A stretch of DNA of 64,000 nucleotides from Sphingobacterium spiritivorum ATCC 33861 (GTDB taxonomy: Bacteria > Bacteroidota > Bacteroidia > Sphingobacteriales > Sphingobacteriaceae). Location: NCBI RefSeq assembly GCF_000143765.1, contig NZ_GL379771.1:868001-932000 (forward strand), given 5' to 3'. Position 1 is the stretch's first letter. Each line of letters opens with the position of its first letter. The position numbers were made by a program, and so were the translations under genes. Positions 3,098-47,708 of this stretch are shown piece by piece. The notes below the pieces were generated by a model. It had not been told where the DNA came from, did not search any database, and saw nothing but the letters and a program-made list of their open reading frames with translations.

Positions 3098-3541
3098 ATG
3101 CTTTCTAAGAAAACAAAATACGCAATCAAGGCTTTGATGGTTTTGGGACGAAATTACGGAAAAGAGCCTATGCAAATTGTTAAAATAGCTGATGAAGAAA
3201 ACATTCCGAAAAAATTTTTGGAACAGATCTTATTAGAAATGCGAAATGCAGGTATCCTCTACAGCAAAAAAGGTGCTGGCGGCGGATACAGCCTTAACAA
3301 AGCTCCGGAAGATGTTTTTCTTTCACAGGTCATGCGCCTTATCGATGGGCCTATTGCATTATTACCCTGTGTGAGTCTTAACTTTTATCGTTCCTGTGAT
3401 GAATGTACGGAAGAACATGTATGTGGTATACGCGATACATTTATCGACGTCCGCAATGCAATGCTGCAGATCCTCAATGATACGAGTATAGCACATCTTA
3501 TCAATAAAGAAAAAGAACTAAATCTGGACATCAGATCTTAA
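3098..3541 (+). CDS. Rrf2 family transcriptional regulator
   Basis: Small winged-helix regulator of the Rrf2/IscR/NsrR family (147 aa, usual length). It starts MLSKKTKYAIKAL, the standard family opening, and carries the wing motif GAGGGYSL (about 59-66). It has cysteines at 91, 100, 103 and 109, a spacing compatible with an iron-sulfur cluster, so it may sense redox or iron-sulfur status. The target is not known: the neighbours (phosphatase, outer-membrane barrel) are not typical Isc genes. A strong hairpin follows the stop, so it is probably transcribed alone. Confidence 0.88.
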   Translation: MLSKKTKYAIKALMVLGRNYGKEPMQIVKIADEENIPKKFLEQILLEMRNAGILYSKKGAGGGYSLNKAPEDVFLSQVMRLIDGPIALLPCVSLNFYRSCDECTEEHVCGIRDTFIDVRNAMLQILNDTSIAHLINKEKELNLDIRS

Positions 3542-3563
3542 GCCCTATCAGAAAGCAAAATAT

Positions 3564-3600
3564 AAAAAAGCATGTAGCGCAAGCGCTATGTGCTTTTTTT
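3564..3600 (+). terminator. Rho-independent terminator after Rrf2 gene
   Basis: Hairpin with arms 3565-3580 and 3583-3598 (near-perfect, two-base AA turn), ending in a run of seven T. It lies 24 bases past the Rrf2 stop. Confidence 0.8.
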
Positions 3601-3689
3601 GTAACTATTTTAACATTTGTTAACCTTATTTAACAACCTGCTAATAAACAATATCCTATTTTTACTGTACAGATTTAAACCTATTTATC

Positions 3690-21773: not shown

Positions 21774-21780
21774 CCCCTCC
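21774..21780 (-). promoter_or_regulatory. Strong Shine-Dalgarno GGAGGGG before virJ-like gene
   Basis: GGAGGGG on the minus strand, 7 bases upstream of the ATG at 21766 and abutting the mprF stop. Most genes here lack such a site, so it stands out and suggests deliberate translation of the second gene. Confidence 0.6.
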
Positions 21781-30291: not shown

Positions 30292-32688
30292 TTACAGAAG
30301 CACTTTGACACCCAAAGAGATATTCCGACCCGGAAGAGGTGCAAGATATTTTAAAAAGGAATTCTGGGGTCTGGCTTCTACGTTCAGCAGATTATTACCA
30401 TTCGCATAGCATTCTACTGTCTGTCCCATAAACTTCAATCTATATCCGACTCGTCCCGCAAGCAGAGAATAAGCTGGCATTGGAGGCTCCGGATTTATAT
30501 TTTTCCCTAAATAACGTTGTTTCAGATAGCGGTCAAAGGATGCATGAAAAAAGATCTTATCTAACTGCAGCGATCCTGCAAGACCGTATCGGCTTGTAGG
30601 AAGATTTGGCATATAATCCCCTTCAGCCCATTTACGCATATTATCATCTGCTGTATTTTCATTTTTGACCAGATCAAAGAAAGAGGATATCTCCCACGTT
30701 CTGTCCTTAGTCCAGGAATCTTTGTAGCTTAACTCAGCTTCCCAACCTGAAATTTTCGTATCGGAAGATCTCCATTCCTTGACCAGAAAACCTCCGGACC
30801 GGGATATTCCGGTATGTGCCAGATAAAGGTAATTGTCAAACGTTGTTTCATAATATGTTGCACTCACCTGAAAACCGTACCCCTGCCAACCGGCTCCGAA
30901 TTCATAGGTTTTAGCAACCTCTTTTGGTAATCTGTCGTCTCCGTTTTCTTCAATCATAATTGCGAAATGATCATTGCCTGCGTAAAGTTCATTTACGTCA
31001 GGTGCCCGTTCAGCATGATTGTAGGATAATTTAAGAAAAGCTGTTTTCAAAATATTCCAGCGCAGATCAGCAGAAAAATGATTCAGATCAAAATTCCGGT
31101 CGGAAAGCTTTCCTCCTGCCATCCCGCGACTCGTTTTATATCCGGCATCATGTTCTGCCCGCCGTACGACCCAATCATGTCTGTACCCCAGATTCAACAG
31201 TACGGGTTGGAAAGTAAATTGCTGCAGGGTAAATGCGCCAACCTCCCGGCTCCAATTATTGGGTAAATATCTTTGTGCCCCCGTTCCATCAATTTTTAAA
31301 AAGGAAAAATCTATTCCACTGGTTCCTTTCCAGAATTTTTTAATCTGATGTTCCATATCTGTTCGGAAAGCGTGTCTGGTGCTGTTGAATTTATTGACCT
31401 GGTATATTCCCACCAATTCTCTGTCATCAGATCGCTGCATCATATAATTGAGTTTCCAGGCGGATATAATAGAAGAATCAGCCCGATAAGCTGTTTCAAA
31501 AAGTGCACTGTGAGCCAGAGCCCTTGTATTGATCGGTGCATAGTCTGGCATTGGCACCACCACATCGTGTGAATGCTTCGGTTTACTTGTCATCGCAAAT
31601 CCCGGAATTCCATAATATCCCTCCAATGCACGGTAGCCTAAGCCTATCCGCCACCGATCCTGAATATAACTCGTTCCGATATTTATCGCCCGGCTCTCCG
31701 CATGGCTGTTGGGCATGATCCCTCTGGTCACGGGTGCATAATCCGAAATCCCATGTACTAAAGTCGTCGAAAGAGGAGTATTGGGATCTTGTCCAGGTAT
31801 ATATTTGTCGTTTGAGGGGTTAGGCATGCGTTCGGTACCGATTACAGAATGGGATTCAAAAGTATAGAGATCTGCTTCCGAAAGCCCCCATTTGGGGTCA
31901 TTCATATGATCCAGCACAAACTGGCTGAGGTAAGGATAGAGACTCAAGTTGCGAATAGTCTCTCTGTCTACATGAACCTGTGCCATTGTTTCGGTCAGGT
32001 GGTCAATCCGCGGATCATACGCTATCGGAGCTTTAGTATTTCCCGGAATTTTAAGATTATTATGATGTTGATTCATTCCCCCCAAATGCCAGGCCCATTT
32101 TTTTCCGAGATTACCGTTGATATCGACTGCTTGTCTGTTTCCGCTATTTGTACCCGCTTCCACCGTGACCCGCCCTCCAAAAGGCTGTGCAAATAATGTC
32201 GCAGGAATTGTGTTATCATGCATGTCCACAGCTCCTCCGATTGCCTTGCCTCCATAGAGCACGCTCGCACTGCCTTTGTACACGTCTATTCCCAGTAAAT
32301 TATCCATGTCAACATTGCTGTTCAGATTGGGACTTATACCGGACAGATCATTGTAAGATAATCCGTTAGTAAGGATTTTGACACGATTTCCACTCAGACT
32401 TCTGATCATTGGCGCTCCAGAATTCGGGCCGAAGTTCGCATTCTGTACTCCGGGAACACGGCTTAAGGTTTCACCCAGCGTCTTTGCCTGTAATATATCC
32501 AGATCTTTACGCCCGAGTTCAGACACATTTCCCTTTGAGGATTTACTTCCTGTTACAATAGCTGTGGGTAGATTGATCTTTTTCAGACTATCAGGAGTGA
32601 CTTTTCCCTGCGCCTGGAGACAGGGAACATAAAATATACCTGTGCATAGAATAAGTACTAACGGAATGCGATAGTGAAGCGATTTCAT
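30292..32688 (-). CDS. TonB-dependent receptor, ZnuD-like
   Basis: 798-residue outer-membrane receptor: signal peptide (about 1-27), plug domain (LGETLSRVPGVQNANFGP, APMIRSLSGNRVKIL, VLYGGKAIGGAVD) and a 22-strand-type barrel ending in LGVKVLL. Segments of the order seen in Neisseria zinc receptor ZnuD are present: YYGIPGFA followed by a His-rich stretch (KPKHSHD), then YNHAERAPDVNELYAGND and LPKEVAKTYEFGAGW. Other His-rich pieces (NQHHNN) also suit metal uptake. Zinc is inferred, not shown. The promoter overlaps a palindrome at 32743-32763, and a lipoprotein gene diverges from it. Confidence 0.82.
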   Translation of the reverse strand: MKSLHYRIPLVLILCTGIFYVPCLQAQGKVTPDSLKKINLPTAIVTGSKSSKGNVSELGRKDLDILQAKTLGETLSRVPGVQNANFGPNSGAPMIRSLSGNRVKILTNGLSYNDLSGISPNLNSNVDMDNLLGIDVYKGSASVLYGGKAIGGAVDMHDNTIPATLFAQPFGGRVTVEAGTNSGNRQAVDINGNLGKKWAWHLGGMNQHHNNLKIPGNTKAPIAYDPRIDHLTETMAQVHVDRETIRNLSLYPYLSQFVLDHMNDPKWGLSEADLYTFESHSVIGTERMPNPSNDKYIPGQDPNTPLSTTLVHGISDYAPVTRGIMPNSHAESRAINIGTSYIQDRWRIGLGYRALEGYYGIPGFAMTSKPKHSHDVVVPMPDYAPINTRALAHSALFETAYRADSSIISAWKLNYMMQRSDDRELVGIYQVNKFNSTRHAFRTDMEHQIKKFWKGTSGIDFSFLKIDGTGAQRYLPNNWSREVGAFTLQQFTFQPVLLNLGYRHDWVVRRAEHDAGYKTSRGMAGGKLSDRNFDLNHFSADLRWNILKTAFLKLSYNHAERAPDVNELYAGNDHFAIMIEENGDDRLPKEVAKTYEFGAGWQGYGFQVSATYYETTFDNYLYLAHTGISRSGGFLVKEWRSSDTKISGWEAELSYKDSWTKDRTWEISSFFDLVKNENTADDNMRKWAEGDYMPNLPTSRYGLAGSLQLDKIFFHASFDRYLKQRYLGKNINPEPPMPAYSLLAGRVGYRLKFMGQTVECYANGNNLLNVEARPQNSFLKYLAPLPGRNISLGVKVLL

Positions 32689-32720
32689 ATTATGTTGAGA
32701 AGTATGTTTAAATGATCATG

Positions 32721-32750
32721 CAAAAATATAAAAACAAATTTTAAATGCAA
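32721..32750 (-). promoter_or_regulatory. Promoter of the ZnuD-like receptor
   Basis: Minus-strand TATTTTTG (32728-32721) as -7 box and TTGC (32750-32747) as -33 box, 18-19 bases apart. The -33 element lies inside the palindrome, so a bound regulator would block this promoter. Confidence 0.6.
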
Positions 32751-32763
32751 CAATGTTGCTTTT
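32743..32763. promoter_or_regulatory. Palindromic operator GCAACA-A-TGTTGC
   Basis: Perfect 6-base arms GCAACA (32747-32752) and TGTTGC (32754-32759) around one A, extended to 10-base arms with a single mismatch by flanking AAA and TTT. It sits between divergent genes and overlaps the receptor's -33 box; a second small palindrome ATTGCAAT follows at 32765-32772. The form suits a Fur/Zur-type dimer site. The regulator is inferred. Confidence 0.6.
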
Positions 32764-32803
32764 TATTGCAATATATTCCTACCTTCGTCAAAAAATACAT
32801 TTT

Positions 32804-33910
32804 ATGAAACGCTACAATTACTCTAAATCCTTACTTTTTGCTTGCGCCACAGCCTTATTGCTGTCTACGTTTTCGGCCTGCAAAAAAGATGAAAAAACAC
32901 CTGATCCTCAGATTGAACTTCAATTACCTTCACAACTTTCCCTGCTTTATGGCGAAGAGAAAGATCTGACGTTGCCCGGCTCCTTAGCAGAACACGGGGA
33001 TGTCTCGCTGCGACTGGAATACGCTGAAACGGAGAATATTACGATTTCGGGAACAACCAAACTGCACGATAAACTAAGTCAGGCCTTCACCATCCAGAAG
33101 AATCAAAACAAGATTCACATTAACAGTAATGTTCTATACCCGAATGGAGTCGTTTCTATTAAGAACGGCATCAAAATTCCGGATACTTACAAAGTTACAG
33201 TGGTAGCTACTGCGGCTAACGGTACTCTAGTGGGCAGACAAACGGTGGGAATCAAGGTTTCTCCTGCCAAAGTGAGCATCAAAGGAGTCCAAAACAACGG
33301 CGAGACTCCCTTTTCCTATGTCTTATACAATGATAAAGGAGCTAGTTTTGAGTTGGATGCATTGAAAATACCCACTACCGGTACTTCCTGGTTCTTGCCA
33401 AAGCAGGAGAATGGAGATACGGCAGTCAGCATAGACGGCAATCATATCAAATTTGCCGTCACTGCCGGAGACCCTCACAAACAAGCTGAAAAAAAATATG
33501 ATCTTGCACCCGCTTTGCTAAAAGATGGATTTCCAGTTGCCTCAACTCCTTTCCAGGTTATATTTATTCCGCAAATCAAATTCTTCTTTGGGATGTATTA
33601 TCCGGAACACAACCTGACAATCAGGCTCAATCTGATTCATATTGGCTTATCTAACGGCTATGTGTCTACTGCTCCTACTTTATATCCGGATAAATACAAA
33701 TCTTCATTCAGTCTTGTTTCTGTAGAGAAGGATGGCAAAGCTTTTACGGATAGCAACAACACTTTTGCCGTTAATGCCTCTACCGGAGTAGTAACTGTCA
33801 AAAAAGATGATGCGTTGAAAGCGGGAAGTTATAAGTTTATAATCAAAGCGGTTACCACTACAGGCCTGACTTTTGAAACAGATCTGACATTAGCCATGTC
33901 TGGTGAATAA
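32804..33910 (+). CDS. Cell-surface lipoprotein divergent from ZnuD-like receptor
   Basis: 368-residue lipoprotein (lipobox FSAC, about Cys24) followed by an acidic/basic KKDEK linker and a beta-rich body with repeated Ig-like segments (GVVSIKNGIKIPDTYKVTV, AGSYKFIIKAVTTTGLTF). I do not recognise a named family. Divergence from a TonB receptor across a shared operator suggests a partner that captures the same ligand at the cell surface. The frame begins at 32753 inside the operator, but the ATG at 32804 with its signal peptide is the real start. A near-consensus -7 box TACCTTCG stands at 32780-32787. Confidence 0.72.
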   Translation: MKRYNYSKSLLFACATALLLSTFSACKKDEKTPDPQIELQLPSQLSLLYGEEKDLTLPGSLAEHGDVSLRLEYAETENITISGTTKLHDKLSQAFTIQKNQNKIHINSNVLYPNGVVSIKNGIKIPDTYKVTVVATAANGTLVGRQTVGIKVSPAKVSIKGVQNNGETPFSYVLYNDKGASFELDALKIPTTGTSWFLPKQENGDTAVSIDGNHIKFAVTAGDPHKQAEKKYDLAPALLKDGFPVASTPFQVIFIPQIKFFFGMYYPEHNLTIRLNLIHIGLSNGYVSTAPTLYPDKYKSSFSLVSVEKDGKAFTDSNNTFAVNASTGVVTVKKDDALKAGSYKFIIKAVTTTGLTFETDLTLAMSGE

Positions 33911-34068
33911 TAGTTAAGAATTGGTTTTGGTTAATTAATAGAAGATGGCGGTTTGTGCTTAGTGTCTTGATTACGGACATTAGGTACATCGTCATTTTCA
34001 GACCATTGGATACACACTGATTTTGAAAAGCAACCATATTCCGGCAATGATCTTTTAGAGATAAATTA

Positions 34069-34758
34069 TCACAAGGGTAAAGTGTCAAAGATGTAAAAAC
34101 CTGCAGATACGGCAAACGGGATCGTGACATTATCATACCCCTCACGGCTCAATGCCTCTGTCAGAGCTGTGATAATGGAAAGCAGTGCTAATACCAGCAG
34201 CTCCTGTCCCTGCAAAGGATACCGGAATATAAGGCAGGAAACCAACATAATCAAATAGGCACTGATAAAAAAGAAAAGGGAACCGACCATTGTCTTGTGT
34301 GCTCCCCTGATCTGATAAGCACCCAATGGCCATCGCTTTCCGCTCAATGCGGCAAGCGGATCACTAATCGCTAATATCAGAACCGGAAGATAGTAGTATA
34401 TCAACTGATTGTTCAGGAAGGTATAACTCAGATAGCAGCCATATACCGCAACCGGATACGCCAGACTGCCAACAGATCTCCGGTCAATAGCATGAATCGA
34501 CCGGAGTAAACGAAAATGCACAGAACATATCAGCAGAATGGTAAAAGAAGTACATAAAACTAAAACCCACCAATGATTATCCAGCATCAGTGGAAAAAGC
34601 AATGCCAATAGCCCGGTGCCTGCATGTACGATTTTACGGGTGAATTCAGCCCTTACTTTACAGCAGTGATATAACAGTTCTGCAACAGCAAACAGTGATA
34701 AAAAAAGTCCTGAAAGTATCAGTGCATTAACTATTCCTGTTTCCATATCTGTTAACAT
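34069..34758 (-). CDS. Dolichol/phytol kinase-like CTP-dependent kinase
   Basis: 229-residue protein with about seven membrane helices. The family of eukaryotic dolichol kinase, plant phytol kinase (VTE5) and yeast DAG kinase Dgk1 is seen in AEFTRKIVHAGTGLLALLFP, ISDPLAALSGKRWP, GAHKTMVGS and SREGYDNVTIPF. These enzymes phosphorylate a lipid alcohol, often with CTP. The acceptor here could be a polyprenol, phytol-like alcohol or diacylglycerol. It is the last gene of a four-gene operon and overlaps the CdsA-like gene by 7 bases; an internal ATG at 34746 would remove the overlap. Confidence 0.8.
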   Translation of the reverse strand: MLTDMETGIVNALILSGLFLSLFAVAELLYHCCKVRAEFTRKIVHAGTGLLALLFPLMLDNHWWVLVLCTSFTILLICSVHFRLLRSIHAIDRRSVGSLAYPVAVYGCYLSYTFLNNQLIYYYLPVLILAISDPLAALSGKRWPLGAYQIRGAHKTMVGSLFFFISAYLIMLVSCLIFRYPLQGQELLVLALLSIITALTEALSREGYDNVTIPFAVSAGFYIFDTLPL

Positions 34759-35480
34759 ATTATTCGCCCGAAATGAACTAAACCGAAAATCGACCCGGTG
34801 AAAATAAAACTGTCATAGCGGTCCAGTATCCCTCCATGTCCCGGAATCAGCCTGCTGTAATCTTTCGTTGCACAAAGTCGCTTATACCAGGACGCCAGTG
34901 CATCTCCGGCAAATGCACAGATACAAATCAATAAAGGTAAAATCAGGCTAAACCCATCAACAGTTTGCGCATGAGCAATAATAAGCAGGCCTGTTGCATA
35001 GCCTGCAATGCTCCCTCCGACTGTTCCCGCAGCAGTTTTATTCGGGCTGATCTTTGGCAATATCCTTCTTTTACCAAATAACTGTCCGAAGAGTTGCGAA
35101 AAGCCGTCAAACGTAAAAATAATGGTATAGATATACAGCAATTCTTCAGGAGTACTGCTGACAATAAACCTATAGAAACCAATAGCAATACCGATATAAA
35201 TAAGGATTGATCCTATACTGAAAATTACACCCCGGTTAGAACGCATGCCCACCAGAAGAAGCTCCACAAATCCAGCAAAGATGAGCCCCGATGCCAAAAA
35301 AATCATCAGCCCGGCCTGAATGCACCCGGCTGTAATAAGGATGATCAGTAAATAAAGAATATACTTAATCCACCGGGATCTTTTTTGCTCCGGATTGCTG
35401 CTTTTATTTAGTATTACAGTAAGCAGAGCACCAATTCCGAAAAATAAAACAACAATATAGATCAGGTTTAAAAACATCAT
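34752..35480 (-). CDS. Phosphatidate cytidylyltransferase-like (CdsA family)
   Basis: 242-residue integral membrane enzyme that makes CDP-diacylglycerol (or another CDP-lipid) from CTP. The CdsA signature is clear near the C-terminus: SWYKRLCATKDYSRLIPGHG followed by GILDRYDS. Upstream it has LFGKRRILPKISPNKTAAG. The open frame runs on to 35741, but the ATG at 35480 gives the four-base ATGA overlap with the preceding CDP-alcohol transferase and the first membrane helix, so it is chosen. Whether this is the housekeeping CdsA or a dedicated paralogue cannot be told; the odd neighbours favour a paralogue. Confidence 0.85.
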   Translation of the reverse strand: MMFLNLIYIVVLFFGIGALLTVILNKSSNPEQKRSRWIKYILYLLIILITAGCIQAGLMIFLASGLIFAGFVELLLVGMRSNRGVIFSIGSILIYIGIAIGFYRFIVSSTPEELLYIYTIIFTFDGFSQLFGQLFGKRRILPKISPNKTAAGTVGGSIAGYATGLLIIAHAQTVDGFSLILPLLICICAFAGDALASWYKRLCATKDYSRLIPGHGGILDRYDSFIFTGSIFGLVHFGRIIC

Positions 35481-36058
35481 TCCTTTGATTTGTTCCACAC
35501 GAATAAACTGCTTTTCACATTGGAGCGGAGTTTGGGCAGAATTGATACTAAAAGTAACTCTTCCATATAGGCCAGTAGACTGATGACCAGCATAATATAA
35601 AAGTAAATCGTACTTACTCCGAATATGAAAAATGTGAATATAAAAATACCCTGCACATATCCCGTCACTTTGTAGGACCAGAGGTGAAAACTCGGAAATC
35701 TGCGGAAACGGATCAAACTTACTAACTGAGGAAGCAGCCACATCCCGATAAGCAGACTGAATTCTATCCTATGCTCCATAACAAAAGATTTCTCCAGCAT
35801 TATCATTCCCGCAAAAGCCATAATGTAGGTACCGATATCGGCCAGAGAATCGAGTCTTGCACCGAATTCCGTTTGCAAACGAAATACACGGGCAATAAGG
35901 CCATCCAGAATATCCGTTATCAGATTGATGGACAGAAGTGTGATAAAAAGCGGTTTGTCTCCTACATATATTGCATAAATAATAAAAGGCAAAGCCAGTA
36001 TACGGTATATGGATAAGGCATTGGGCACATTCCATATGTTTTCTTTTTTAGTGTCCAT
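35477..36058 (-). CDS. CDP-alcohol phosphatidyltransferase
   Basis: 193-residue membrane enzyme that moves a phosphatidyl group from a CDP-lipid onto an alcohol. The full signature D-x2-DG-x2-AR-x8-G-x3-D-x3-D is present in DILDGLIARVFRLQTEFG followed by ARLDSLAD (about residues 49-74), and about five or six helices follow. It is probably of the PgsA/PssA type; the acceptor cannot be assigned. It starts 2 bases after the HMG-CoA reductase stop and overlaps the CdsA-like gene by 4 bases, so these genes are translated together. Confidence 0.88.
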   Translation of the reverse strand: MDTKKENIWNVPNALSIYRILALPFIIYAIYVGDKPLFITLLSINLITDILDGLIARVFRLQTEFGARLDSLADIGTYIMAFAGMIMLEKSFVMEHRIEFSLLIGMWLLPQLVSLIRFRRFPSFHLWSYKVTGYVQGIFIFTFFIFGVSTIYFYIMLVISLLAYMEELLLVSILPKLRSNVKSSLFVWNKSKE

Positions 36059-36060
36059 CG

Positions 36061-37338
36061 TTATATCGATTTTTTACGTCCGAATTTCTGGTGAGCACTT
36101 GTAAAATGCCCTGCAGATAACGCTGCTGCGATAGAGAGTTCACCAGCCAGTACAAGACCTCCACATATTTCAGCAAATTTTCTGGCCTGGCCTGCACCAT
36201 AGCAATCCATTATTTCAAGACATTCCCGTTGTGTGGACAGATGAGTCCCTCCACCCACTGTTCCGACCATCAGATTGGGTAAGGTTACACTTGCGTACAA
36301 GGACCCATCCTTATTAAGCTCCATACGTGTTATACCAGTCGCCGCCTCTGCCACGCAGGCGACATCCTGACCGGTAGCGAGAAATAAAGCCGCCAATCCG
36401 TTTGCATAGTGCCCGTGAGCTCCGATAGCACCACTTTGGATAATGCCCATTGTTGAAGAGCGCCAGTATTCTGCCATGAGTTCCGGTGTCGTTTTTAATA
36501 CTTGCTGTACAATAGTCTCCGGAAGCACAATTTCCGCAGTTACCTTTTTGCCGCGGACATTTGTAAAAGATAGAGCCGTTGCTTTTTTATCACCGGAATA
36601 ATTACCTTCTACAAACCACAGTTTAGGTTTAACAGGGCTATGGGCTATCAGATACTGACATATAGTATCTGTACATATGGTGACCATATTTTGCCCTGCC
36701 GCATCCCCAGTCTGGTACTCAAAAGTGACAATGAGATGGTTTCCTTCGATCTGAATCTGGATACAGGTTAACCGGGCAAAACGGCTGGTTTGTTTTGTAA
36801 TTTCCTTTAGTTTTTCTTCCTGCGGTAGTAGCCAGCTCACAAACAGACCCAGTTCGCCTACATTTTCAAATTTGAACAAGGGACTACGCTGTACGCCCTC
36901 TATCAGACATATTGAAGTAATGCCTCCGGCCACAAAACAGGCTCTTGCACCCCGATGATAAGATGCCAGCAAAGCGCCTTCACTCGTTGCCAGAGGGACA
37001 TAAAAATCGGCATTCGCCGCAGAACCGATAATCCGCAGCGGACCGATCACTCCTGTTGGCACACATGACATCCCGATGTAATTTTCTATATTTCCATTCA
37101 GCCGATCCGGCTCTCCGATCTCTTCTCCCGACAGAAAGGGAAATTGTTTCCCTGTAATCTTTTGCAAAAAAGAGTGTCGCTGCAGCATCCCTTCCCTGTT
37201 TACTTCTGCAGATAACGGAAGTGTGCAATCAACCGTTAATTCTGCAGGTCTGCGATTTTTTATACTATGTATTATATTTCCGATTTCTGTCTCTATCCTG
37301 TGCAACGCTTTGTTTGCTTTTTCAATTGATGAGGCCAT
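36061..37338 (-). CDS. Class I 3-hydroxy-3-methylglutaryl-CoA reductase
   Basis: 425-residue soluble enzyme making mevalonate from HMG-CoA. The class I layout and all catalytic residues are visible (numbered from the chosen start): Glu120 in ATSEGALLAS, Lys251 in SGDKKATAL, Asp325 in ATGQDVA and His416 in AGHFTSAHQKFGR, along with ENYIGMSCVPTGVIGP and MVGTVGGGTHL. There is no membrane anchor. The frame extends to 37440, but upstream codons lie over a regulatory region and a TATGTTTG -7 box at 37359-37366, so the ATG at 37338 is chosen. First gene of a lipid-type operon. No other mevalonate gene is in the window. Confidence 0.9.
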   Translation of the reverse strand: MASSIEKANKALHRIETEIGNIIHSIKNRRPAELTVDCTLPLSAEVNREGMLQRHSFLQKITGKQFPFLSGEEIGEPDRLNGNIENYIGMSCVPTGVIGPLRIIGSAANADFYVPLATSEGALLASYHRGARACFVAGGITSICLIEGVQRSPLFKFENVGELGLFVSWLLPQEEKLKEITKQTSRFARLTCIQIQIEGNHLIVTFEYQTGDAAGQNMVTICTDTICQYLIAHSPVKPKLWFVEGNYSGDKKATALSFTNVRGKKVTAEIVLPETIVQQVLKTTPELMAEYWRSSTMGIIQSGAIGAHGHYANGLAALFLATGQDVACVAEAATGITRMELNKDGSLYASVTLPNLMVGTVGGGTHLSTQRECLEIMDCYGAGQARKFAEICGGLVLAGELSIAAALSAGHFTSAHQKFGRKKSI

Positions 37339-37358
37339 ATAATTGATATTAGTAAACA

Positions 37359-37366
37359 CAAACATA
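37359..37366 (-). promoter_or_regulatory. -7 box TATGTTTG of the HMG-CoA reductase operon
   Basis: Minus-strand TATGTTTG 20 bases before the ATG at 37338. It supports the shorter start. The operator-like repeat at 37387-37399 is just upstream. Confidence 0.45.
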
Positions 37367-37386
37367 TTGCGATTTTCGTTATTAAA

Positions 37387-37399
37387 TTTGTGACAATCA
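37387..37399. promoter_or_regulatory. Operator-like site TTTGTGA-CAA-TCA
   Basis: Partial copy of the palindrome at 37418-37434 (full left arm TTTGTGA, three-base spacer, TCA of the right arm). The two sites are 31 bases apart, about three helical turns. Confidence 0.5.
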
Positions 37400-37417
37400 A
37401 TAATAATATTTTGCATT

Positions 37418-37434
37418 TTTGTGAAAATCACAAA
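37418..37434. promoter_or_regulatory. Operator-like palindrome TTTGTGA-AAA-TCACAAA
   Basis: Perfect 7-base arms with a 3-base spacer, 8 bases before the regulator's ATG, overlapping a near -7 box (CATTTTTG, 37414-37421). The position suits autoregulation and control of the divergent operon. Confidence 0.65.
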
Positions 37435-37441
37435 TAACACG

Positions 37442-38398
37442 ATGTATCAGGAACTGTTAATCCGCGAAATCCAGAAAAAAACAGGCAGGCATCAGTCGCT
37501 GATCGGAGAAGTATCTACTGCTCTGGACATCAGCTATGATGCTGCACACCGGCGCATATCAATGAAAAGTAAGTTTTCTATTGAAGAGACCGTTCTGCTG
37601 GCAAATTACTTTGGTTTTTCAATGGATCAGATTTTTCAGCGGGGTGAGCATGTATTGGTCAAAAGAACAAAAGAGATTCAGACGTTAAATGACTTCAGCA
37701 GTTATCTGGATAACTCTCTCAAATCGTTGATGGATTACCTTCCCGATACAAAGACCAGTCTCTATTATTCGGCTAAAGACATTCCGATATTCTATACGAT
37801 AAATACAGATCTCTTATCTACATTCAAGCGTTATGTCTGGCTGAATATGTTGAATATGGAAGGTTTGGATATTTCTTTTGAAACCTTTGAAAAAAATGCC
37901 CGGATTATGGATAACAGCAGAAAACTAAATCACTTCTATTCTGCCATAAGTGCTCATGAAATCTGGAATGATACAACGATAAACAGTACTCTGCAGCAAA
38001 TCATGTATTTCTTTCATGCGGGTCTTCTAACTGCAGATAACGGAAAATCCCTCTGTGAAAATCTTAAAGAACTGATATTTTCCCTGGAAAAAAAATGTAC
38101 CGCACAAAATGAACAATACCGTCTCTATTATCACGATCTGCTGATCCTGAATAACAATGTTCTCGTGGCAGACAAACAACGTAAATCTTTGTTTGTGCCC
38201 TATACCATGCTGGGATATTTTATCACCAGTGATACAGATACTTGCAAGCATGTTTCTAATTTTTTTCAGCATCAGCTCAAAAACTCCAAACTTCTGAATA
38301 CTGCCGGCACCCGAGATAAAAAGATGTTTTTTAACAGGGCTTATCAAAAAATAGATCTGTACAAAAACCAGATTACTTCTTTTAATGATATTGGTTAA
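37442..38398 (+). CDS. Helix-turn-helix regulator divergent from HMG-CoA reductase operon
   Basis: 318-residue protein. An N-terminal helix-turn-helix (IGEVSTALDISYDAAHRRIS) is followed by a long helical domain without recognised ligand motif; this architecture is common among orphan regulators of Bacteroidota. A GTG at 37421 opens the same frame, but that codon lies inside the palindrome, so the ATG at 37442 is the start. The gene is divergent from the HMG-CoA reductase operon across about 100 bases holding two operator-like repeats, and is its likely regulator. Confidence 0.75.
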   Translation: MYQELLIREIQKKTGRHQSLIGEVSTALDISYDAAHRRISMKSKFSIEETVLLANYFGFSMDQIFQRGEHVLVKRTKEIQTLNDFSSYLDNSLKSLMDYLPDTKTSLYYSAKDIPIFYTINTDLLSTFKRYVWLNMLNMEGLDISFETFEKNARIMDNSRKLNHFYSAISAHEIWNDTTINSTLQQIMYFFHAGLLTADNGKSLCENLKELIFSLEKKCTAQNEQYRLYYHDLLILNNNVLVADKQRKSLFVPYTMLGYFITSDTDTCKHVSNFFQHQLKNSKLLNTAGTRDKKMFFNRAYQKIDLYKNQITSFNDIG

Positions 38399-38439
38399 AG
38401 GGAGATTATATTTACACATTCTGATAATTACGTTGCTTT

Positions 38440-38982
38440 ATGAAATCTCAAAATTTTGACCTTAAACTCTCAGGAACTCCGACAGCGTTTGGGGATACAC
38501 AATTACTGGAAACCTATAGATTCCCAAATGGTAAAGGGTTTCCGGATTCTTACAAAAATTTTGTGCTGACCTATGGATATGGCGTGGCTCTGGGAGAATT
38601 TCTTATTTACATACCTATGGGAGACTACGGTGATTCCCTGTTTGTGCGATCGGAAGAAATCAAAAACACGTATATCGAAGATGTTTATAACAATGATATC
38701 TGGTTTGAACTGGAACCGGATGGTTCCCCTGAATTGTTAAAACGATTGTTTCCTTTTGCCAGCAGCGAAAATGGACTCTACCTGTTCTGGGATTATGAGT
38801 CAAACCCTGAACCACACGAATTTGACATCTATCTTACCGATTTCCGGGGTACAGGTTTTAAGAAAGTGGGCGGATCACTTTACAGTGTCATCGATAATCT
38901 GACACACAATGGATCTGAGCATACACCTGTTTTCAATAATCCGAAGGAACGGATTTTTAAGTGTCTGCAGAGACGGGGTTAG
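38440..38982 (+). CDS. SMI1/KNR4 (SUKH) family protein
   Basis: 180-residue soluble protein with the SUKH pattern: LPxSYKNFVLTYGYG-type opening (here FPDSYKNFVLTYGYG), GEFLIYIPMG, and later FPFASSENGLYLFWDY. SUKH proteins are often immunity factors for secreted polymorphic toxins. It lies 41 bases after the HTH regulator and faces the gene trail downstream of the Rhs system, about 1.8 kb past the Rhs tip, so an immunity role is plausible but not tied to a specific toxin. Confidence 0.72.
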   Translation: MKSQNFDLKLSGTPTAFGDTQLLETYRFPNGKGFPDSYKNFVLTYGYGVALGEFLIYIPMGDYGDSLFVRSEEIKNTYIEDVYNNDIWFELEPDGSPELLKRLFPFASSENGLYLFWDYESNPEPHEFDIYLTDFRGTGFKKVGGSLYSVIDNLTHNGSEHTPVFNNPKERIFKCLQRRG

Positions 38983-40803: not shown

Positions 40804-43800
40804 CTACCTCTCATAATAATAATTAACGGACTGCTCTCCCGCACTGCTACCCATATATCCTCCGGCTAAACTTCCAATAAAACCACCAATCAATGCCCCA
40901 GGAACTGCACCTACACCACCAAACCAAACACCAATAGCAGCACCAGCAGATGCTCCAATTTTGGCTCCAGCCAATCCTCCAACTATTCCTCCAGCACTGC
41001 TTGCTGCTGCTTTTTGAGCATTGTAACCAAATTGTTCACCATCCATCTGGTACCCTCTGTATGTTTCTATACCTCCAACGAGTACAGAAGCAATGACGGT
41101 TCCTCTACCTGCCCATTTATACATCCCGGCTATTTTGTATGCTCCTGAGCGACTTCCCGCATATTGATTGCCACCCCAAGAGCTATTATAGTATTTCCCA
41201 TTCTTACCGAGCCATTTGTTGCCAGGAGCAACCAATATTTCCGATGCACCTAATAGTTCCCCTGTCATATCTAAGGCTGACTTAGTGCCTTCAAATCCAA
41301 AGTTTGCAGTTGAAACAGATTTAATATTTCCCATTATACCAACAGCATTACTAACCTGCCCCTGTACATTACTTAGCCATCTCCCACTCTCAAAAGAGGA
41401 TGTTCCCGTTACATTAACAGCATCCAATTCCCAACTAAAACCATTTCCAGCACTGATAACATGATTAGAAATATCATTTATAGAAGCTCCACTGGTATTG
41501 TTCAGATAATTGAAGAACGAAGAAATTTCATCACTATCATCTATGGTTATATTACCGTTTGCATCCACACGGTACATGCCATTCGGATCATGAAACAGAA
41601 TAGGATCGTTTCCTACATAGGCATAAGGAGAATAAGAAGAATACATTTCTGACATAGGATCCATCACATTCCATCTTCCCATCACAGGATCATAGAATCT
41701 GGCTCCGTATTCCAGCTGGCCACCTAACTCCTCCTGTTTCTCTTTGCCATTATAAAGATACTTATTATTTCCATATACAGGATTTGGGGATTTCTGTAAA
41801 CCAAACGGATAGTAGTCATCTCTTTGCAGTACTTCCACTGCATTTGTATTCGGGTTCCGGTAGATGGTGGCTCTGACATTGCCCAGATGATCTGTCAGGT
41901 TGTATCGGTAGCTGTATGTGCCGTTTGCATTCCGGTAGGCTACCCCTTCTGCGGTATGGATCAGTTCAATTACTCCGTTCTGGTATTCTATTCCGCCTGC
42001 ATAATCCCGCTGTCCTGTGGTGCTGGCTGTTTTTCGAAGTTTATTACCCCCTGCATCATACAGGTAGGTAATCGTGTTCCCTGCTCCTGTCACCTGCTGT
42101 GGTAGATTCAGGTGATTGTAGCTCAGATTCATACCCATACGGTCGGTCTTTGCATTGCCGTTTTCATCATAGCTGTAGCTGCCATTGATAACACCGGATA
42201 CGGTATGCAGTCTGTTGCCGGTATAGCTGTAGCTGATCCCGGATCCGTCACGGGTCAGATGGGTGATATTACCCATATCATCGTAGTTCAGGATTTCGGA
42301 CATGCCGGATGTGGGACTGTTTCCGTTTGTCAACCGGTTCAGTTTGTCATAACTGTACACAAAGTGTTGGTTGAGGCTTGTCGTCGGACCCCATTGTTGT
42401 TCGGAGATATTACCGTTCCATTGTGCTGCTGCTCCTTTGACCGGATCCTGATAACTGAGTTGCTGGCTGAAGTGGGGTGAGGTCGTGCTTGTCATCCAGC
42501 CCCGCTCATTGTACCGATAGTCTGTCGTATTCACCGGGTTATTCCCCTGCTGGTCTGCGCCTACTGTCTTTGTTTTGAGCTGACCGATTTCATTGTAACT
42601 ATTGGTCAATAAAGTGACTTCCGGTTGACTGTTGATCTGTTGCCTGCTGTTGACCAGACGGCCGACATGGTCGTATTCATTGGTGGTGGTGATAGTGGTG
42701 GTTTGTCCGTTAACGGTATGTCTGCGGGTGCTGCTTTCCAGTTCTCCCGTGAAGCTGTAACTGTTGTCGGTGATATCTGTACCGCCGATATGGTTCTGAC
42801 TCTTACTCTGGATTATTCTGCCATAGTCGTCATAATAGTGGGTGGTCAGCAGCATAGTACCTGTGCCCAGTGTGGTGGTTTTGGTGCCGGTCAGTAAGGT
42901 CTTGACCCGTGCTCCGGAAGCCTGATTTCCTGTCGGAGCGCCAAAGCTGTTCTCCGGAAAGTCATACCGGTCGTAGTAGTTGATCGTATGGTAATACGCA
43001 ATATTCGTCGGAAAGACAGCATTGGTATACCCCTGGTCTGTGGTTGCAGGGTTTTCCCAGAGCCGGCCTATTGTCTGGCCATTGCTGTTGATCTGGGCAG
43101 TCAGCGCAACTGCACTCTCTGTACTGGTATAGATACCGGTCATAATCACCCGGCCGAATGCATCGTATTTGCTGAACAGCCATTCTCCGGCTGCTCTGCG
43201 GTTGGCATCACGGCTCAGTACTACCTGGTCATTGTTATTATACACCAGTTCTTCTTTTCCTTTGCCGGGGATCTTTTTCTCTGTTAACCGTCTGCGTCCG
43301 TCATATTTATAGCCATAGATGTATGCATCGTAGCTGGGGTCTGCAGGATCTTCACTGAATGTGTTAACAGTTACTGCAGGGGGGATCACATAGCGAAGGT
43401 CGCCGAAGTCATCGTAGACATAATGGGTCTCCAGTTTTTTGCTCTCTGTTTCCCAGACACGTTTCAGGACTACTCTTCCATCAAAGTCTTTGTATTCTTC
43501 TACGGTGCCGCTTTTGCCACTGCTCCAGTTCTCATCCTTGATGGTGGTTTTGTACAGCCTGCCCGGTTGGTAATAAGTGGCTGTAGCGCCGTTTTCGGAT
43601 GCATTGAGCTGCCAGAGTTTCACATCATTAGTTTCATTGGTGCCATAGTCTGTGCGGACGGTATGGCCTGAGTTCAGCTGCCAGGATTCGCCGGGTGAGC
43701 CCTGAGCCTGTACCCGGTTCAGCGGACTGTTCTCAAACCGGGTCTCTGCATAGGGATAGCCTGTTTTCTTTACGGCTGCATCCCAGCCCACAGTGGGACT

Positions 43801-44322
43801 GTAGTAATTCATCACATCCACTCCGGCTGTGGGTTTATAGCTGCCATCCATACTCCCCGAAGTGGCATAGGGAAGATATTTTTTGCTCTCCCTGCCAAAG
43901 CCGTCATACTCTACATGCTGTACAATGTCTTTGTGGGTAGGGGAAGCCATGACCTGTATACTTTGCAGGGGCCGGCCCAGGCCGTCAAAGTACTGGATGC
44001 TCTGGTTTTCTTCTTCTACGGTGCGGGACTGGGATAGGTTGGCGAGTGTCACTCCTGCCTTGCGAAAGGTGCGTGTCAGGATGTAGTTCTGGTTTCCACT
44101 CGGCTGGGTTTGTAAAACGGGATGTGTCTGCAGGCTGCTGCTGGTGTAGATCCGAACTGTACTGCCTGAAGGGATATGGAAGCCCGGTTTCAGCGTAACA
44201 CTGCCCTGAGCTTTGATCTGACTCTGGCCGCTGTAGCTGGTCAGGATCAGATCTGTATTTTGTGCACTAACCGTTGATAAGGTTAATAGGGTTAATATCG
44301 TGGATATAAGAGGTCTTTTCAT
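40804..44322 (-). CDS. Secreted Rhs-repeat protein with variable glycine-rich C-terminal tip
   Basis: 1172-residue protein: signal peptide (about 1-20, ending VSAQ), an N-terminal DUF6443-type region (EEENQSIQYFDGLGRPLQSI), many YD/Rhs repeats, and the Rhs core end (YRYNLTDHLGNVRATIYRN, DPVMGRWNVMDPMSEMYSSY, GNDPILFHDPNG). After the core comes a distinct tip (about residues 917-1172, bases 40804-41574) ending in a long Gly/Ala-rich hydrophobic stretch (about 1109-1161, GGIVGGLAGAKIG to SLAGGYMGSSAGE). Rhs shells carry a toxin tip released inside or onto a target. The glycine-zipper character suggests membrane insertion, and a membrane protein gene follows by 2 bases. Second gene of the Rhs operon. 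Confidence 0.85.
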   Translation of the reverse strand: MKRPLISTILTLLTLSTVSAQNTDLILTSYSGQSQIKAQGSVTLKPGFHIPSGSTVRIYTSSSLQTHPVLQTQPSGNQNYILTRTFRKAGVTLANLSQSRTVEEENQSIQYFDGLGRPLQSIQVMASPTHKDIVQHVEYDGFGRESKKYLPYATSGSMDGSYKPTAGVDVMNYYSPTVGWDAAVKKTGYPYAETRFENSPLNRVQAQGSPGESWQLNSGHTVRTDYGTNETNDVKLWQLNASENGATATYYQPGRLYKTTIKDENWSSGKSGTVEEYKDFDGRVVLKRVWETESKKLETHYVYDDFGDLRYVIPPAVTVNTFSEDPADPSYDAYIYGYKYDGRRRLTEKKIPGKGKEELVYNNNDQVVLSRDANRRAAGEWLFSKYDAFGRVIMTGIYTSTESAVALTAQINSNGQTIGRLWENPATTDQGYTNAVFPTNIAYYHTINYYDRYDFPENSFGAPTGNQASGARVKTLLTGTKTTTLGTGTMLLTTHYYDDYGRIIQSKSQNHIGGTDITDNSYSFTGELESSTRRHTVNGQTTTITTTNEYDHVGRLVNSRQQINSQPEVTLLTNSYNEIGQLKTKTVGADQQGNNPVNTTDYRYNERGWMTSTTSPHFSQQLSYQDPVKGAAAQWNGNISEQQWGPTTSLNQHFVYSYDKLNRLTNGNSPTSGMSEILNYDDMGNITHLTRDGSGISYSYTGNRLHTVSGVINGSYSYDENGNAKTDRMGMNLSYNHLNLPQQVTGAGNTITYLYDAGGNKLRKTASTTGQRDYAGGIEYQNGVIELIHTAEGVAYRNANGTYSYRYNLTDHLGNVRATIYRNPNTNAVEVLQRDDYYPFGLQKSPNPVYGNNKYLYNGKEKQEELGGQLEYGARFYDPVMGRWNVMDPMSEMYSSYSPYAYVGNDPILFHDPNGMYRVDANGNITIDDSDEISSFFNYLNNTSGASINDISNHVISAGNGFSWELDAVNVTGTSSFESGRWLSNVQGQVSNAVGIMGNIKSVSTANFGFEGTKSALDMTGELLGASEILVAPGNKWLGKNGKYYNSSWGGNQYAGSRSGAYKIAGMYKWAGRGTVIASVLVGGIETYRGYQMDGEQFGYNAQKAAASSAGGIVGGLAGAKIGASAGAAIGVWFGGVGAVPGALIGGFIGSLAGGYMGSSAGEQSVNYYYER

Positions 44323-44330
44323 AATCGGAC

Positions 44331-47300
44331 TTATTGGGGGCGGTAATGGTAATGGTAGCTTTGTCTGAGCTGCTGAAACTGATCCAGGACATGTTGCAAG
44401 CGTTGCAGACCATCGTATTGATAATACTCTGTCTGCCCTCTGGCATCGGTCTTACTTGTCATGCCGACTAGGGGTTTGTAGGTATAGGAAGTAACCTGAG
44501 AACCGGGAAGGTTGGAGCGTAAAATCTCCATCTTCTGACGGATATAATCCGCTGTGACGGTTCCGCTGTTCAGTGCATCGACTACACTTTGTCCACCAAT
44601 GGCTGAAACGACATCATTATAATGTGCATTGACAATTTCGGCAACTGGATACTGGCCGTTGTAACCCCAGAGGTAACTGGTCGAAAGGCTTCCGTTTTCA
44701 AGAACCTCCGACAGATTATTGAAATTATCATAAAGGATACATTCAAGTCGTTTTTCATATTGTTCATCGGGCAGGAAGGCTGTTTGCTCACCCTCCGGAA
44801 AAATAACGCCTTTTATTCGATTACTAAATTTAAAATCATTTGAAACAATGCCATTAGAATTGATCCGGAGTTCATAAATCGAATGTAAACGATTAAAGTT
44901 ATCATACGTAAAGTGCTTACCTCCCAAAATTCGTTTACTTCCTCCATTTTCGACAAGCGTCACACTTTCAATTGGATTTGCAATTACATTTTTTTCAAGA
45001 AGTTTAGCTAAAAATGGAGTACTGTCAATATAATCATAGGGATAAATGAAATAATTACGTTTAACTTTTCCATCACTTGTTTGTATTTTATTCGTCCTTA
45101 GCTGACCAAAAACATCATCATATGTGGACTCCGTACTATTTGTGGTGGATATAGTAGTGCCGTTAGCATCATATTCTGAGATCGTCTCTCTTGAAAGTCT
45201 GTAAACAGGGATATACAACATGAATGGAGTTTGACCAAACAAATCAGAATCAATAGATACCTGAGATGCCGCACAAGTTGGATTGACATATATCTTTGTT
45301 CTGAAAAACTTCATTACACGTAATGGATTACTGATAAGATCATACTTACGTTCAACCATCCGCTGGAGAATAAATTTCCCGGAAACATTATCCCATTTAT
45401 AATAAGACTCCGATGGTGCATTTCCGATAAATACCATATTGTTTACAAACTCTTTCTGATAAGGAGAATTAGGAGAATGGAAACTATATGGAACAGCTAA
45501 GCTCAGATTTTTGCTGTAACCTATTTTACCGGTTATTTCTCTTTTATTATTATACTGTATTTTTTGTACAGATTCATAATAAATATGTCTTCCGAAAATA
45601 TTGGGACCAAGAATATTTGCCTGTCCTGTATACACCAGATAATTACGGTCATAGAAACAGGCACAAGGGATCATTTCTGCGCATTGATAATCAATCTTTA
45701 ATTTTTGAAAATAATGATTATCATCAACCTCTTTAAGCTCTCTAAGAACTTTTCCTTCCGAATAATTAAATTTATCCATATTAACAAGAACACCTGTATG
45801 ATCAAAATTTTCAATAGTTTGAATACGTACGCCATCAGCAAAAATATTACGATTTGCAGTAGCGTGATATTTACCACTAACAGAGGCCTCAACATAGGAA
45901 GCGTTAAATAAATTATCGGAAGGTTCATCAACAACTGTAGTTATAAGACGATAAATACGACCGTTTATCAGCGAAACCTGTAAGTTATGAGATTCTGACT
46001 GTGTATAATTAGTACTTCTATTCTTTATTATAACATTTTGATTAGTTGTCAAATCAATCAATCTAACAACCTGCATATCGGGTGGAGAGTAATATGGTCC
46101 AGGAGGTTTTAATGGTGAAAAGTAAATCTTTAAATAGCCTGTGTTATTCAGGACGTTCTCATTCACAACAAAATCTACTGTATCATGAACCGGGATCCTT
46201 TTGGATTTACCCGTTACTTTTAAATTTCCGTAAACTTTATTTAATTCTGTATTACTTTGCCCGCTATAAAAATTCGGTTCAAATGTAAATATTGTTTTTC
46301 CTCCAGTCGGATAGACAATCTCTTTCAGAATACCGGATTGTATTAAAGATGTATCTACACTTCTGTCCGATCCTCCGACATAGCGGTCTGTATCGATTCC
46401 CGGTAAAGCAAGAGGTTTTATTTTTGGTAAAAAGTCAGATATCCGTCCATTATAATATCCCCAGTAATCCTGTGCGGTTGAATTGGTTGCCGGCAAAGGG
46501 TGAGACATGTCATATCTGAATCCGTATCTTTGATCATTAGACACTCCGATAGATAAAGAATTTAATTTCAATCGATAGTCAAATTGCGTAACCGGGTTAT
46601 TTCCCACAAAGTAGTCGTATGAAAAGACTACCTTATTAATAATCTGCTGGTCTGCGTAAATATCAATAGAATTGAGTTGATGACCGGGGAAATCATAACG
46701 GGGTACAGTATAGTTAAAAAGGACTTTGCCTGATTTCATTGTAATTTCCTTAATGCGTGGCTCAACCTGAGTATAATAGCTCAAATTTTGCTCATAAACC
46801 TCTCTTGGCATACCATAATCTCTACTATCAGCCTGATACAGAAATTTCTTCACAAATGATTTTTGAACCAGCCATTCCGGTTTTACCGAAGAACCCGAAG
46901 GAAGTGAGGCATATGCAGAAACCGTTTCATATTGGTAAGCAATCGATTCACCCTTAATATTCTCAATCCGGGACAAAAACCAGGATTGAGTATAAGACTT
47001 TAATATTAATGGTATTTCCCAGGCGGAATCATCAAAAGTAACCTGAGTCGTTTCAAAAAAGTATCGGTTGCCATTAGTCGTTGTAAGCACAAATGAACTT
47101 GACTGATAAGAAGATTTGTTTATCCAATCGATTTTAATTCCGGGATCAAAATCATTGATAAATTTTCTTTTTGAGACATCATAAATAAATTTTCCACCTT
47201 CACCTGTAGGAAGTCTGAAACTAAAGACATCAGGCTCTCCATCATAGAATAAGTCCGCATACACTTGCTTTTGTTGGTTTGTCGTATAGCTGTATTTTTC

Positions 47301-47708
47301 TTCATAACTAACATTCAAATCAATATATCCCCGTTGTGCATACTCATCAGGCAAAGCTCTTACTGACCGGCTAATAACTCCTCCAGAATTTAATGACCAA
47401 CCCAGCCCTACCGAAGAGGCGACCTGAGAAACTTTTATCCCGGAGGCATTGTAGTCCACATCTACGTCATAAGAAAGAGATCCGGACTGTACTTTAAACA
47501 ACGGAATTTTTATATCCGGAACTCCGGTATTTACACCAACATTATATTCTCCATACATGAGAAAAGCTGCGACATCAGGGGAAGCTATCTGCGGCTTGAT
47601 TTTATATTGGTCCGTCTGACCAAACAGATTAAAACTAAAAGAGAAAAAAGAATAAATTAAAATAAGACATTTAATTTTCGAAAACAGTTGCTTCAGATAT
47701 AAATTCAC
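44331..47708 (-). CDS. Large secreted YD-repeat (Rhs-type) partner protein
   Basis: 1125-residue exported protein, start codon GTG, signal peptide near residues 10-30 (SFFSFSFNLFGQ). The N-terminal region (AAFLMYGEYNVGVNTGVPDI, VGLGWSLNSGGVISRSV) is the type found at the head of Bacteroidota Rhs-like proteins. Its C-terminus has YD repeats (MTSKTDARGQTEYYQYDGLQ) but no core terminus or toxin. It precedes the effector gene by 8 bases. The pair resembles two-part shells in which one protein builds the cage and the next carries the tip; that division of labour is inference. Confidence 0.8.
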   Translation of the reverse strand: MNLYLKQLFSKIKCLILIYSFFSFSFNLFGQTDQYKIKPQIASPDVAAFLMYGEYNVGVNTGVPDIKIPLFKVQSGSLSYDVDVDYNASGIKVSQVASSVGLGWSLNSGGVISRSVRALPDEYAQRGYIDLNVSYEEKYSYTTNQQKQVYADLFYDGEPDVFSFRLPTGEGGKFIYDVSKRKFINDFDPGIKIDWINKSSYQSSSFVLTTTNGNRYFFETTQVTFDDSAWEIPLILKSYTQSWFLSRIENIKGESIAYQYETVSAYASLPSGSSVKPEWLVQKSFVKKFLYQADSRDYGMPREVYEQNLSYYTQVEPRIKEITMKSGKVLFNYTVPRYDFPGHQLNSIDIYADQQIINKVVFSYDYFVGNNPVTQFDYRLKLNSLSIGVSNDQRYGFRYDMSHPLPATNSTAQDYWGYYNGRISDFLPKIKPLALPGIDTDRYVGGSDRSVDTSLIQSGILKEIVYPTGGKTIFTFEPNFYSGQSNTELNKVYGNLKVTGKSKRIPVHDTVDFVVNENVLNNTGYLKIYFSPLKPPGPYYSPPDMQVVRLIDLTTNQNVIIKNRSTNYTQSESHNLQVSLINGRIYRLITTVVDEPSDNLFNASYVEASVSGKYHATANRNIFADGVRIQTIENFDHTGVLVNMDKFNYSEGKVLRELKEVDDNHYFQKLKIDYQCAEMIPCACFYDRNYLVYTGQANILGPNIFGRHIYYESVQKIQYNNKREITGKIGYSKNLSLAVPYSFHSPNSPYQKEFVNNMVFIGNAPSESYYKWDNVSGKFILQRMVERKYDLISNPLRVMKFFRTKIYVNPTCAASQVSIDSDLFGQTPFMLYIPVYRLSRETISEYDANGTTISTTNSTESTYDDVFGQLRTNKIQTSDGKVKRNYFIYPYDYIDSTPFLAKLLEKNVIANPIESVTLVENGGSKRILGGKHFTYDNFNRLHSIYELRINSNGIVSNDFKFSNRIKGVIFPEGEQTAFLPDEQYEKRLECILYDNFNNLSEVLENGSLSTSYLWGYNGQYPVAEIVNAHYNDVVSAIGGQSVVDALNSGTVTADYIRQKMEILRSNLPGSQVTSYTYKPLVGMTSKTDARGQTEYYQYDGLQRLQHVLDQFQQLRQSYHYHYRPQ

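Follow-up and report, generated by a model that had tools for sequence, protein, structure and literature searches.

What does a class I HMG-CoA reductase do in an operon with three enzymes of membrane lipid synthesis? 3-Hydroxy-3-methylglutaryl-CoA (HMG-CoA) reductase (HMGR) is among the best-studied of enzymes and the target of the statins, and annotators take its substrate as given. The question is raised by a 64,000-nucleotide stretch of Sphingobacterium spiritivorum ATCC 33861 (assembly GCF_000143765.1, contig NZ_GL379771.1; the whole stretch is termed the window), in which four minus-strand genes (34069-37338) encode an HMGR-like enzyme, a CDP-alcohol phosphatidyltransferase, a CdsA homologue and a membrane protein resembling dolichol and phytol kinases. 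An earlier reading of the sequence alone (the sequence-only reading) had proposed that these genes could together make an unusual isoprenoid-linked or CDP-activated lipid. Our analysis supports a lipid-type unit, and we give about an even chance to the reading that the operon is a short form of a Bacteroidota lipid cluster and makes a special phospholipid by way of an altered HMGR, rather than isoprenoids.

The tight coupling of the four genes was verified in both coordinates and spacing. The HMGR-like gene (36061-37338, 425 amino acids) is separated by a 2-base gap from the phosphatidyltransferase gene (35477-36058, 193 amino acids), which overlaps the CdsA-family gene (34752-35480) by 4 bases; the latter overlaps the kinase-like gene (34069-34758, 229 amino acids) by 7 bases. 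The products of the first three genes score over the Pfam cut-offs (PF00368, 377 bits; PF01066, 66 bits; PF01148, 117 bits). In addition to its PF01066 match, the phosphatidyltransferase carries the full DGxxAR(8x)GxxxDxxxD signature (D49, D52, G53, A56, R57, G66, D70 and D74), and the CTP:lipid-phosphate cytidylyltransferase combines PF01148 with the C-terminal K-R...K-D...G-G...D-R-x-D signature (S197, K200, R201, K206, D207, P213, G216, G217, D220, R221, D223 and S224). Alignments of 18 sequences for each protein, the window's included, show no variation at these residues, and the patterns are characteristic of the two families. Both family assignments of the sequence-only reading stand. 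Scores of the operon proteins fell far under the NCBIfam cut-offs of the PgsA, PssA and Cls models, and a Protein Data Bank (PDB) sequence search with the phosphatidyltransferase gave no match at E 0.01. The CdsA homologue is a putative cytidylyltransferase of a lipid phosphate, which may or may not be phosphatidate.

Next to the HMGR-like gene, a 103-base intergenic region (37339-37441), the presumed site of both promoters, precedes a divergent plus-strand gene (37442-38398, 318 amino acids; 37442 is the likelier start). A helix-turn-helix regulator had been proposed here. The divergent gene is present, but its helix-turn-helix was read by eye and no Pfam or NCBIfam match was found, and we regard the product as a probable DNA-binding regulator. 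Scanned for promoters and terminators as a whole, positions 33850-38500 gave no more promoter-like or terminator-like matches than shuffled sequences.

The same five genes are contiguous in the nearest genome, G001, at 90-96% identity (96% for the divergent gene). When 59 relative genomes were scanned for orthologues of the HMGR, kinase-like and phosphatidyltransferase genes, HMGR matches were found in 15, two of which are distant (37-40% identity; G037 and G047), leaving the subfamily of the window's enzyme in 13; it occurs in 11 of 36 genomes of the same genus. A kinase-like orthologue (E<1e-50) is present in all 13 genomes with the subfamily and in none of the 46 without it (Fisher p 2.5e-13), one of which, G023, gave a weak match to a fragment (E 1.5e-5). 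The phosphatidyltransferase follows the same pattern, with orthologues of 62-95% identity in 12 of the 13 genomes and weak paralogue matches only in the 46 others (0/46; p 1.2e-11). One genome, G024, carries the phosphatidyltransferase-CdsA pair on a different contig from the HMGR. Because the five genes are contiguous in G001 and the genes co-occur with such regularity, the linkage of the operon is beyond chance.

The sequence-only reading had also noted that the HMGR stands without other mevalonate genes, and wider searches agree. The dxs gene was found in all 17 genomes examined for it (G001 included), an HMG-CoA synthase match was obtained in one of 40 (G082), and scores over the cut-off were reached in 0 of 40 genomes for diphosphomevalonate decarboxylase and in 0 of 16 for mevalonate kinase. 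For the operon itself, this genome-wide result is that of G001, the nearest relative, rather than of the window's own assembly. There, HMG-CoA synthase had no match, mevalonate kinase (52 bits; cut-off 163) and the decarboxylase (20.5 bits) matched weakly and below the cut-off, and dxs is present; on these grounds a complete mevalonate pathway with this reductase was rejected for G001. Elsewhere in the same genome lies a second CdsA that scores better than the operon's. Two of the outcomes that the sequence-only reading had named as refuting it, a complete mevalonate pathway and the lack of a second CdsA, were accordingly not seen in this genome.

The reductase keeps its catalytic residues, and its substrate pocket looks changed. 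All four catalytic residues noted in the sequence-only reading are present (E120, K251, D325 and H416, equivalent to human E559, K691, D767 and H866). When 92 subfamily HMGRs (near-copies among them; L013 and L075 are identical) were aligned with the human enzyme and that of PDB entry 6hr7, the catalytic Glu, Lys and Asp were found in 92/92 and the His in 91/92, with one gap. Arg590, Asp653, Asn658, Asp690 and Lys692 (human numbering) are likewise invariant, and D653 and N658 presumably form the NADPH site. At the position of human Ser684, however, all 92 sequences have Glu (E244 in the window, codon 36607-36609), and in the Lys735 column all 92 have no residue, whereas the solved structures (human, 6hr7 and plant-type 8ecg) keep both residues. 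Gln replaces Met657, and new aromatic residues appear at 681 (Trp, 90/92), 731 (Tyr, 87/92) and 732 (Trp, 83/92). The subfamily has lost the Ser684 and Lys735 contacts to the terminal carboxylate of HMG, with which Lys735 is reported to form a salt bridge (PMC9500038). These changes suggest that the HMGR-like enzyme may reduce an acyl-CoA other than HMG-CoA. The window HMGR scores 338.5 bits against TIGR00533, an equivalog_domain model, and so stays below its cut-off of 441.8.

A second Bacteroidota HMGR subfamily (L107, L109, L110, L111, L114, L116, L117 and L118) shares 37-43% identity with the window's enzyme, mostly in open reading frames of more than 500 amino acids. Glu occupies the Ser684 position in seven of these eight. 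For HMG-CoA synthase and the decarboxylase, nothing was matched in their genomes, and the neighbourhoods viewed contained no gene that we recognised as belonging to a lipid cluster.

Gene neighbourhoods were compared in the 80 loci that a contig scan retained as the best of 222 relatives. For the counts of neighbours, 60 of these were used, each with 9 kb or more downstream, and the remaining 20 were left out; gene families are script-picked open reading frames clustered by BLAST, in which missed or split genes count as absent. The HMGR and kinase-like genes lie mostly within a larger cluster with genes for UbiA-like, phosphoenolpyruvate (PEP)-synthase/PigC-like, DUF3419 (BtaA-like), tandem GNAT and OleC-like ligase proteins. 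The kinase-like gene is the most frequent partner of HMGR (56/60 loci), which suggests that its product acts on the product of the reductase; a UbiA-like gene is found in 49 of the 60 and a DUF3419 gene in 47. In two loci, L035 and L038, a CarS-like gene occurs with no CdsA in view (assigned by PF01864 in L038 and by membership of the same cluster in L035; the reference structure, 5guf, we take to be CarS). In a divergent locus, L115, the HMGR (positions 3188-5503 of that locus) carries an APH-type kinase domain fused at its C-terminus, a CarS-like gene comes next, and the genome has no kinase-like match. L068 and L115 have neighbouring fatty-acid desaturase genes, and L115 also has a PlsC-type acyltransferase gene. 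The divergent gene adjoins HMGR in 12 of the 80 loci, all of which have the phosphatidyltransferase gene.

All four operon genes co-occur in 22 of the 80 loci, nine of which lack UbiA-like and PEP-synthase-like genes in view: six from Sphingobacterium, plus L032, L089 and L093 from outside it. Conservation of the gene order, proposed earlier as a check, proved partial. Sphingobacterium short-form loci and L032 have the four genes in the window's order, but elsewhere the content is kept while the order varies or genes are inserted (HMGR, kinase, phosphatidyltransferase, CdsA in L089; phosphatidyltransferase, CdsA, HMGR, kinase in L093). Three short-form genomes, G001, G016 and G026, have no UbiA-like or DUF3419 match anywhere. 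On a quick HMGR tree with long branches, the label 'phospho-module without UbiA/PEP-synthase-like genes' requires seven changes (gains or losses), at least four by starred branches; it covers 13 rows, among them two loci that stop shortly beyond their genes (L035 and L038) and L027, where a kinase-like gene is not in view. Sphingobacteriaceae bacterium DW12 has two HMGR copies, one (L021) with the UbiA/DUF3419 module and the other (L027) with the phosphatidyltransferase/CdsA module. The window operon looks like a short form of this lipid-making cluster, a relationship that lay beyond what the window sequence alone could show.

The fourth gene is a weaker point of the assignment. Its product has the invariant pattern DxxAxxxG...KxxxG across 66 sequences, and its predicted fold is CdsA-like; a designed protein and a transporter follow directly behind CdsA, at ranks three and four. 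One source names its matches 'phytol kinase' and 'dolichol kinase', whereas NCBI calls many of the same matches 'phosphatidate cytidylyltransferase'; a S. spiritivorum entry is 99% identical over 97% of the length. No Pfam or NCBIfam match was found at E 0.01, in libraries whose possession of a model for this kinase family was left unchecked; a PDB sequence search at E 1 gave no relatives, and a Foldseek structure search gave no match at E 0.001. The dolichol/phytol-kinase identity put forward in the sequence-only reading draws on the pattern, the database names and the predicted fold rather than on any profile match, and we presume the protein to be a CTP-dependent alcohol kinase. In L101 and L103-L106, the kinase-like protein has roughly double the length (457-461 amino acids); Pfam gave no match for those of L101 and L103.

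Family membership suggests an order of reactions for the operon. The HMGR-like enzyme would use NADPH to turn a CoA thioester into a primary alcohol, the thioester probably being some 3-hydroxyacyl-CoA rather than HMG-CoA; the dolichol-kinase-like enzyme would phosphorylate this alcohol with CTP; the CdsA homologue would convert the alcohol phosphate to a CDP-ester; and the phosphatidyltransferase would join the CDP-ester to a second alcohol, giving the finished lipid. The product of the divergent gene may regulate the operon. This proposal draws on the orphan HMGR in genomes that carry dxs, the strict co-occurrence of the kinase-like and phosphatidyltransferase genes, the kinase fusion in L115, the CarS-like genes, the desaturase and PlsC neighbours, the Glu at 684 with the missing Lys735, and the second CdsA of G001. 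As the substrate we slightly favour a lipid over a small polar molecule, namely a long-chain 3-hydroxyacyl-CoA that would yield a 1,3-diol.

Several observations weigh against this proposal. In 64 of 92 sequences, a basic residue is found no more than two alignment columns away from the lost Lys735, and Lys692, Asp690 and Arg590, which are also near HMG, are kept in every one; therefore, HMG-CoA may still bind. The pocket comparison covered only the human, archaeal (6hr7) and plant-type (8ecg) enzymes. Three genomes with the same subfamily (G082, G119 and G213) have decarboxylases just below the cut-off (160-164 bits against 171), and G082 is also the one with HMG-CoA synthase; a mevalonate role is therefore possible there. 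As for the partners, the kinase-like family is without profile support, no CdsA was found in the examined stretch of 34 of the 60 loci, and L030 and L058 have no kinase-like gene. The kinase fusion is known from one divergent genome, L115 (about 40% identity), and its APH-type domain suggests a small polar substrate, unlike a membrane kinase with CdsA.

Alternatively, the HMGR could make mevalonate from HMG-CoA (for instance from leucine breakdown), and mevalonate could be built into or onto a lipid, perhaps as the head group on a CDP-lipid supplied by the kinase-like enzyme and CdsA. The kept catalytic residues, Arg590, Asp690, Lys692, D653 and N658, the high PF00368 score and the lack of a mevalonate kinase or decarboxylase over the cut-off in G001 agree with this. 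Against it, the Glu for Ser684 and the missing Lys735 in all 92 sequences remove or repel the carboxylate contacts, and 39 of 40 genomes have no HMG-CoA synthase match; we consider this explanation unlikely but far from negligible. That the reductase serves a housekeeping mevalonate pathway for isoprenoids, its usual role, is scarcely credible. The near-cut-off decarboxylases of the three genomes named above would fit such a role, but dxs is universal among the genomes tested, G001 has none of the three mevalonate genes sought over a cut-off, and the subfamily is confined to less than a third of the genomes of its genus. Mevalonate-degrading HMGRs occur in bacteria, and an orphan HMGR might be one of them, oxidising external mevalonate beside unrelated operon partners. 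This is very improbable, since the partners are lipid-type and strictly co-occurring and the enzyme resembles the NADPH type (338.5 bits for TIGR00533 versus 34.3 for TIGR00532).

There are two further alternatives. In an archaeal-type route to isoprenoid ether lipids, the HMGR would feed isoprenoid supply and CdsA/CarS with the phosphatidyltransferase would finish archaetidyl-type lipids. The closest solved HMGR is 6hr7, an archaeal enzyme (1dq8 and 8ecg being the human and plant ones), and the UbiA-like and CarS-like genes would suit such a route, for which archaeal lipid genes in Fibrobacteres-Chlorobi-Bacteroidetes (FCB) bacteria offer a published precedent (PMC7852524). However, geranylgeranylglyceryl phosphate (GGGP) synthase was over the cut-off in none of 32 same-genus genomes (24 weak matches below it, eight with no match) and in two of 34 genomes in all, G041 and G059, both outside the genus. 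The second Asp-rich motif of the UbiA-like protein looks degenerate by eye, and G001, G016 and G026 have no UbiA-like match; dxs is present. The route was rejected for the genus and is quite improbable overall. With no GGGP synthase over the cut-off in the genus, no UbiA-like gene in G001 and the HMG-carboxylate contacts lost, the isoprenoid-linked product of the sequence-only reading is not supported, and the lost contacts place even mevalonate in doubt. It is highly improbable that the four genes no longer work together and are decaying remnants of the larger cluster. The missing UbiA-like and DUF3419 matches of G001 would be expected of remnants, but the catalytic signatures are intact, the genes still overlap, and the set recurs without the larger cluster in 9 of 80 loci, three of them outside Sphingobacterium.

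If the proposed phospholipid pathway is carried further, the operon may make a so far undescribed class of Bacteroidota membrane lipids built on an alcohol from a neofunctionalised HMGR that has abandoned HMG-CoA, a possibility that we hold tentatively, at somewhat less than an even chance. In one bold version, reduction of a long-chain 3-hydroxyacyl-CoA would give an alkane-1,3-diol, which would serve in place of glycerol as the backbone of the lipid. In another version, the acidic, aromatic pocket would accept a cationic 3-hydroxyacyl-CoA, carnitinyl-CoA for example, and reduce it to an alcohol resembling choline. As part of this reading, the short operon would produce a phospho-form and the longer cluster a DUF3419-type (amino-carboxypropyl) form. 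If true, many bacterial 'HMG-CoA reductases' would be misnamed, and many Bacteroidota would make a lipid so far undescribed.

Each of the enzyme families is known. The reductase shares the fold family and catalytic Glu, Lys, Asp and His of the class I HMGRs (1dq8, 6hr7 and 8ecg), but differs from them in the pocket residues described above and in lying in a lipid-type operon, in a lineage whose nearest genome has no complete mevalonate pathway. The operon resembles CDP-diacylglycerol or CDP-alcohol phospholipid synthesis (CdsA with PgsA or PssA) in encoding one enzyme of each kind, both with complete signatures, but its CdsA is additional to a better-scoring one and is linked to two further enzymes, the reductase and the dolichol-kinase-like protein. 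Yeast DGK1 and SEC59 and plant VTE5 are CTP-dependent alcohol kinases, to which the kinase-like protein may be likened by a DxxA...G...K...G pattern and a CdsA-like predicted fold. DUF3419 we take to be the link to the betaine-lipid enzyme BtaA; no match in G001 indicates that DUF3419 apparently lies outside the window's pathway. The longer clusters share UbiA-type and CarS/CdsA-type enzymes with the archaeal-type lipid genes of FCB bacteria, from which the genus differs in its lack of GGGP synthase over the cut-off; the main text on those genes makes no use of the term 'HMG-CoA reductase' (PMC7852524). Another gene neighbourhood, in which HMG-CoA reductase is mentioned beside a GHMP kinase (PMC12419801), was taken for a different system. 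In the literature searched, which covered few subscription papers or preprints, we found no description of the four-gene combination, the larger cluster or the altered HMGR subfamily.

Other genes surround the operon in the window. A TonB-dependent receptor gene, divergent from a lipoprotein-like gene (30292-33910), adjoins it, and both are kept beside the operon in G001; the best NCBIfam scores of the receptor, below the cut-off, are to ZnuD and hemin receptors. On the other side lie a SUKH protein gene (38440-38982) and, on the minus strand (40804-47708), genes for two very long adjacent proteins, one of 1172 amino acids with DUF6443 that looks Rhs-like by eye and one of 1125 amino acids with no Pfam match. 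About 10 kb from the operon, another phospholipid-modifying gene (21780-24377, minus strand) encodes an MprF-type lysylphosphatidylglycerol synthase.

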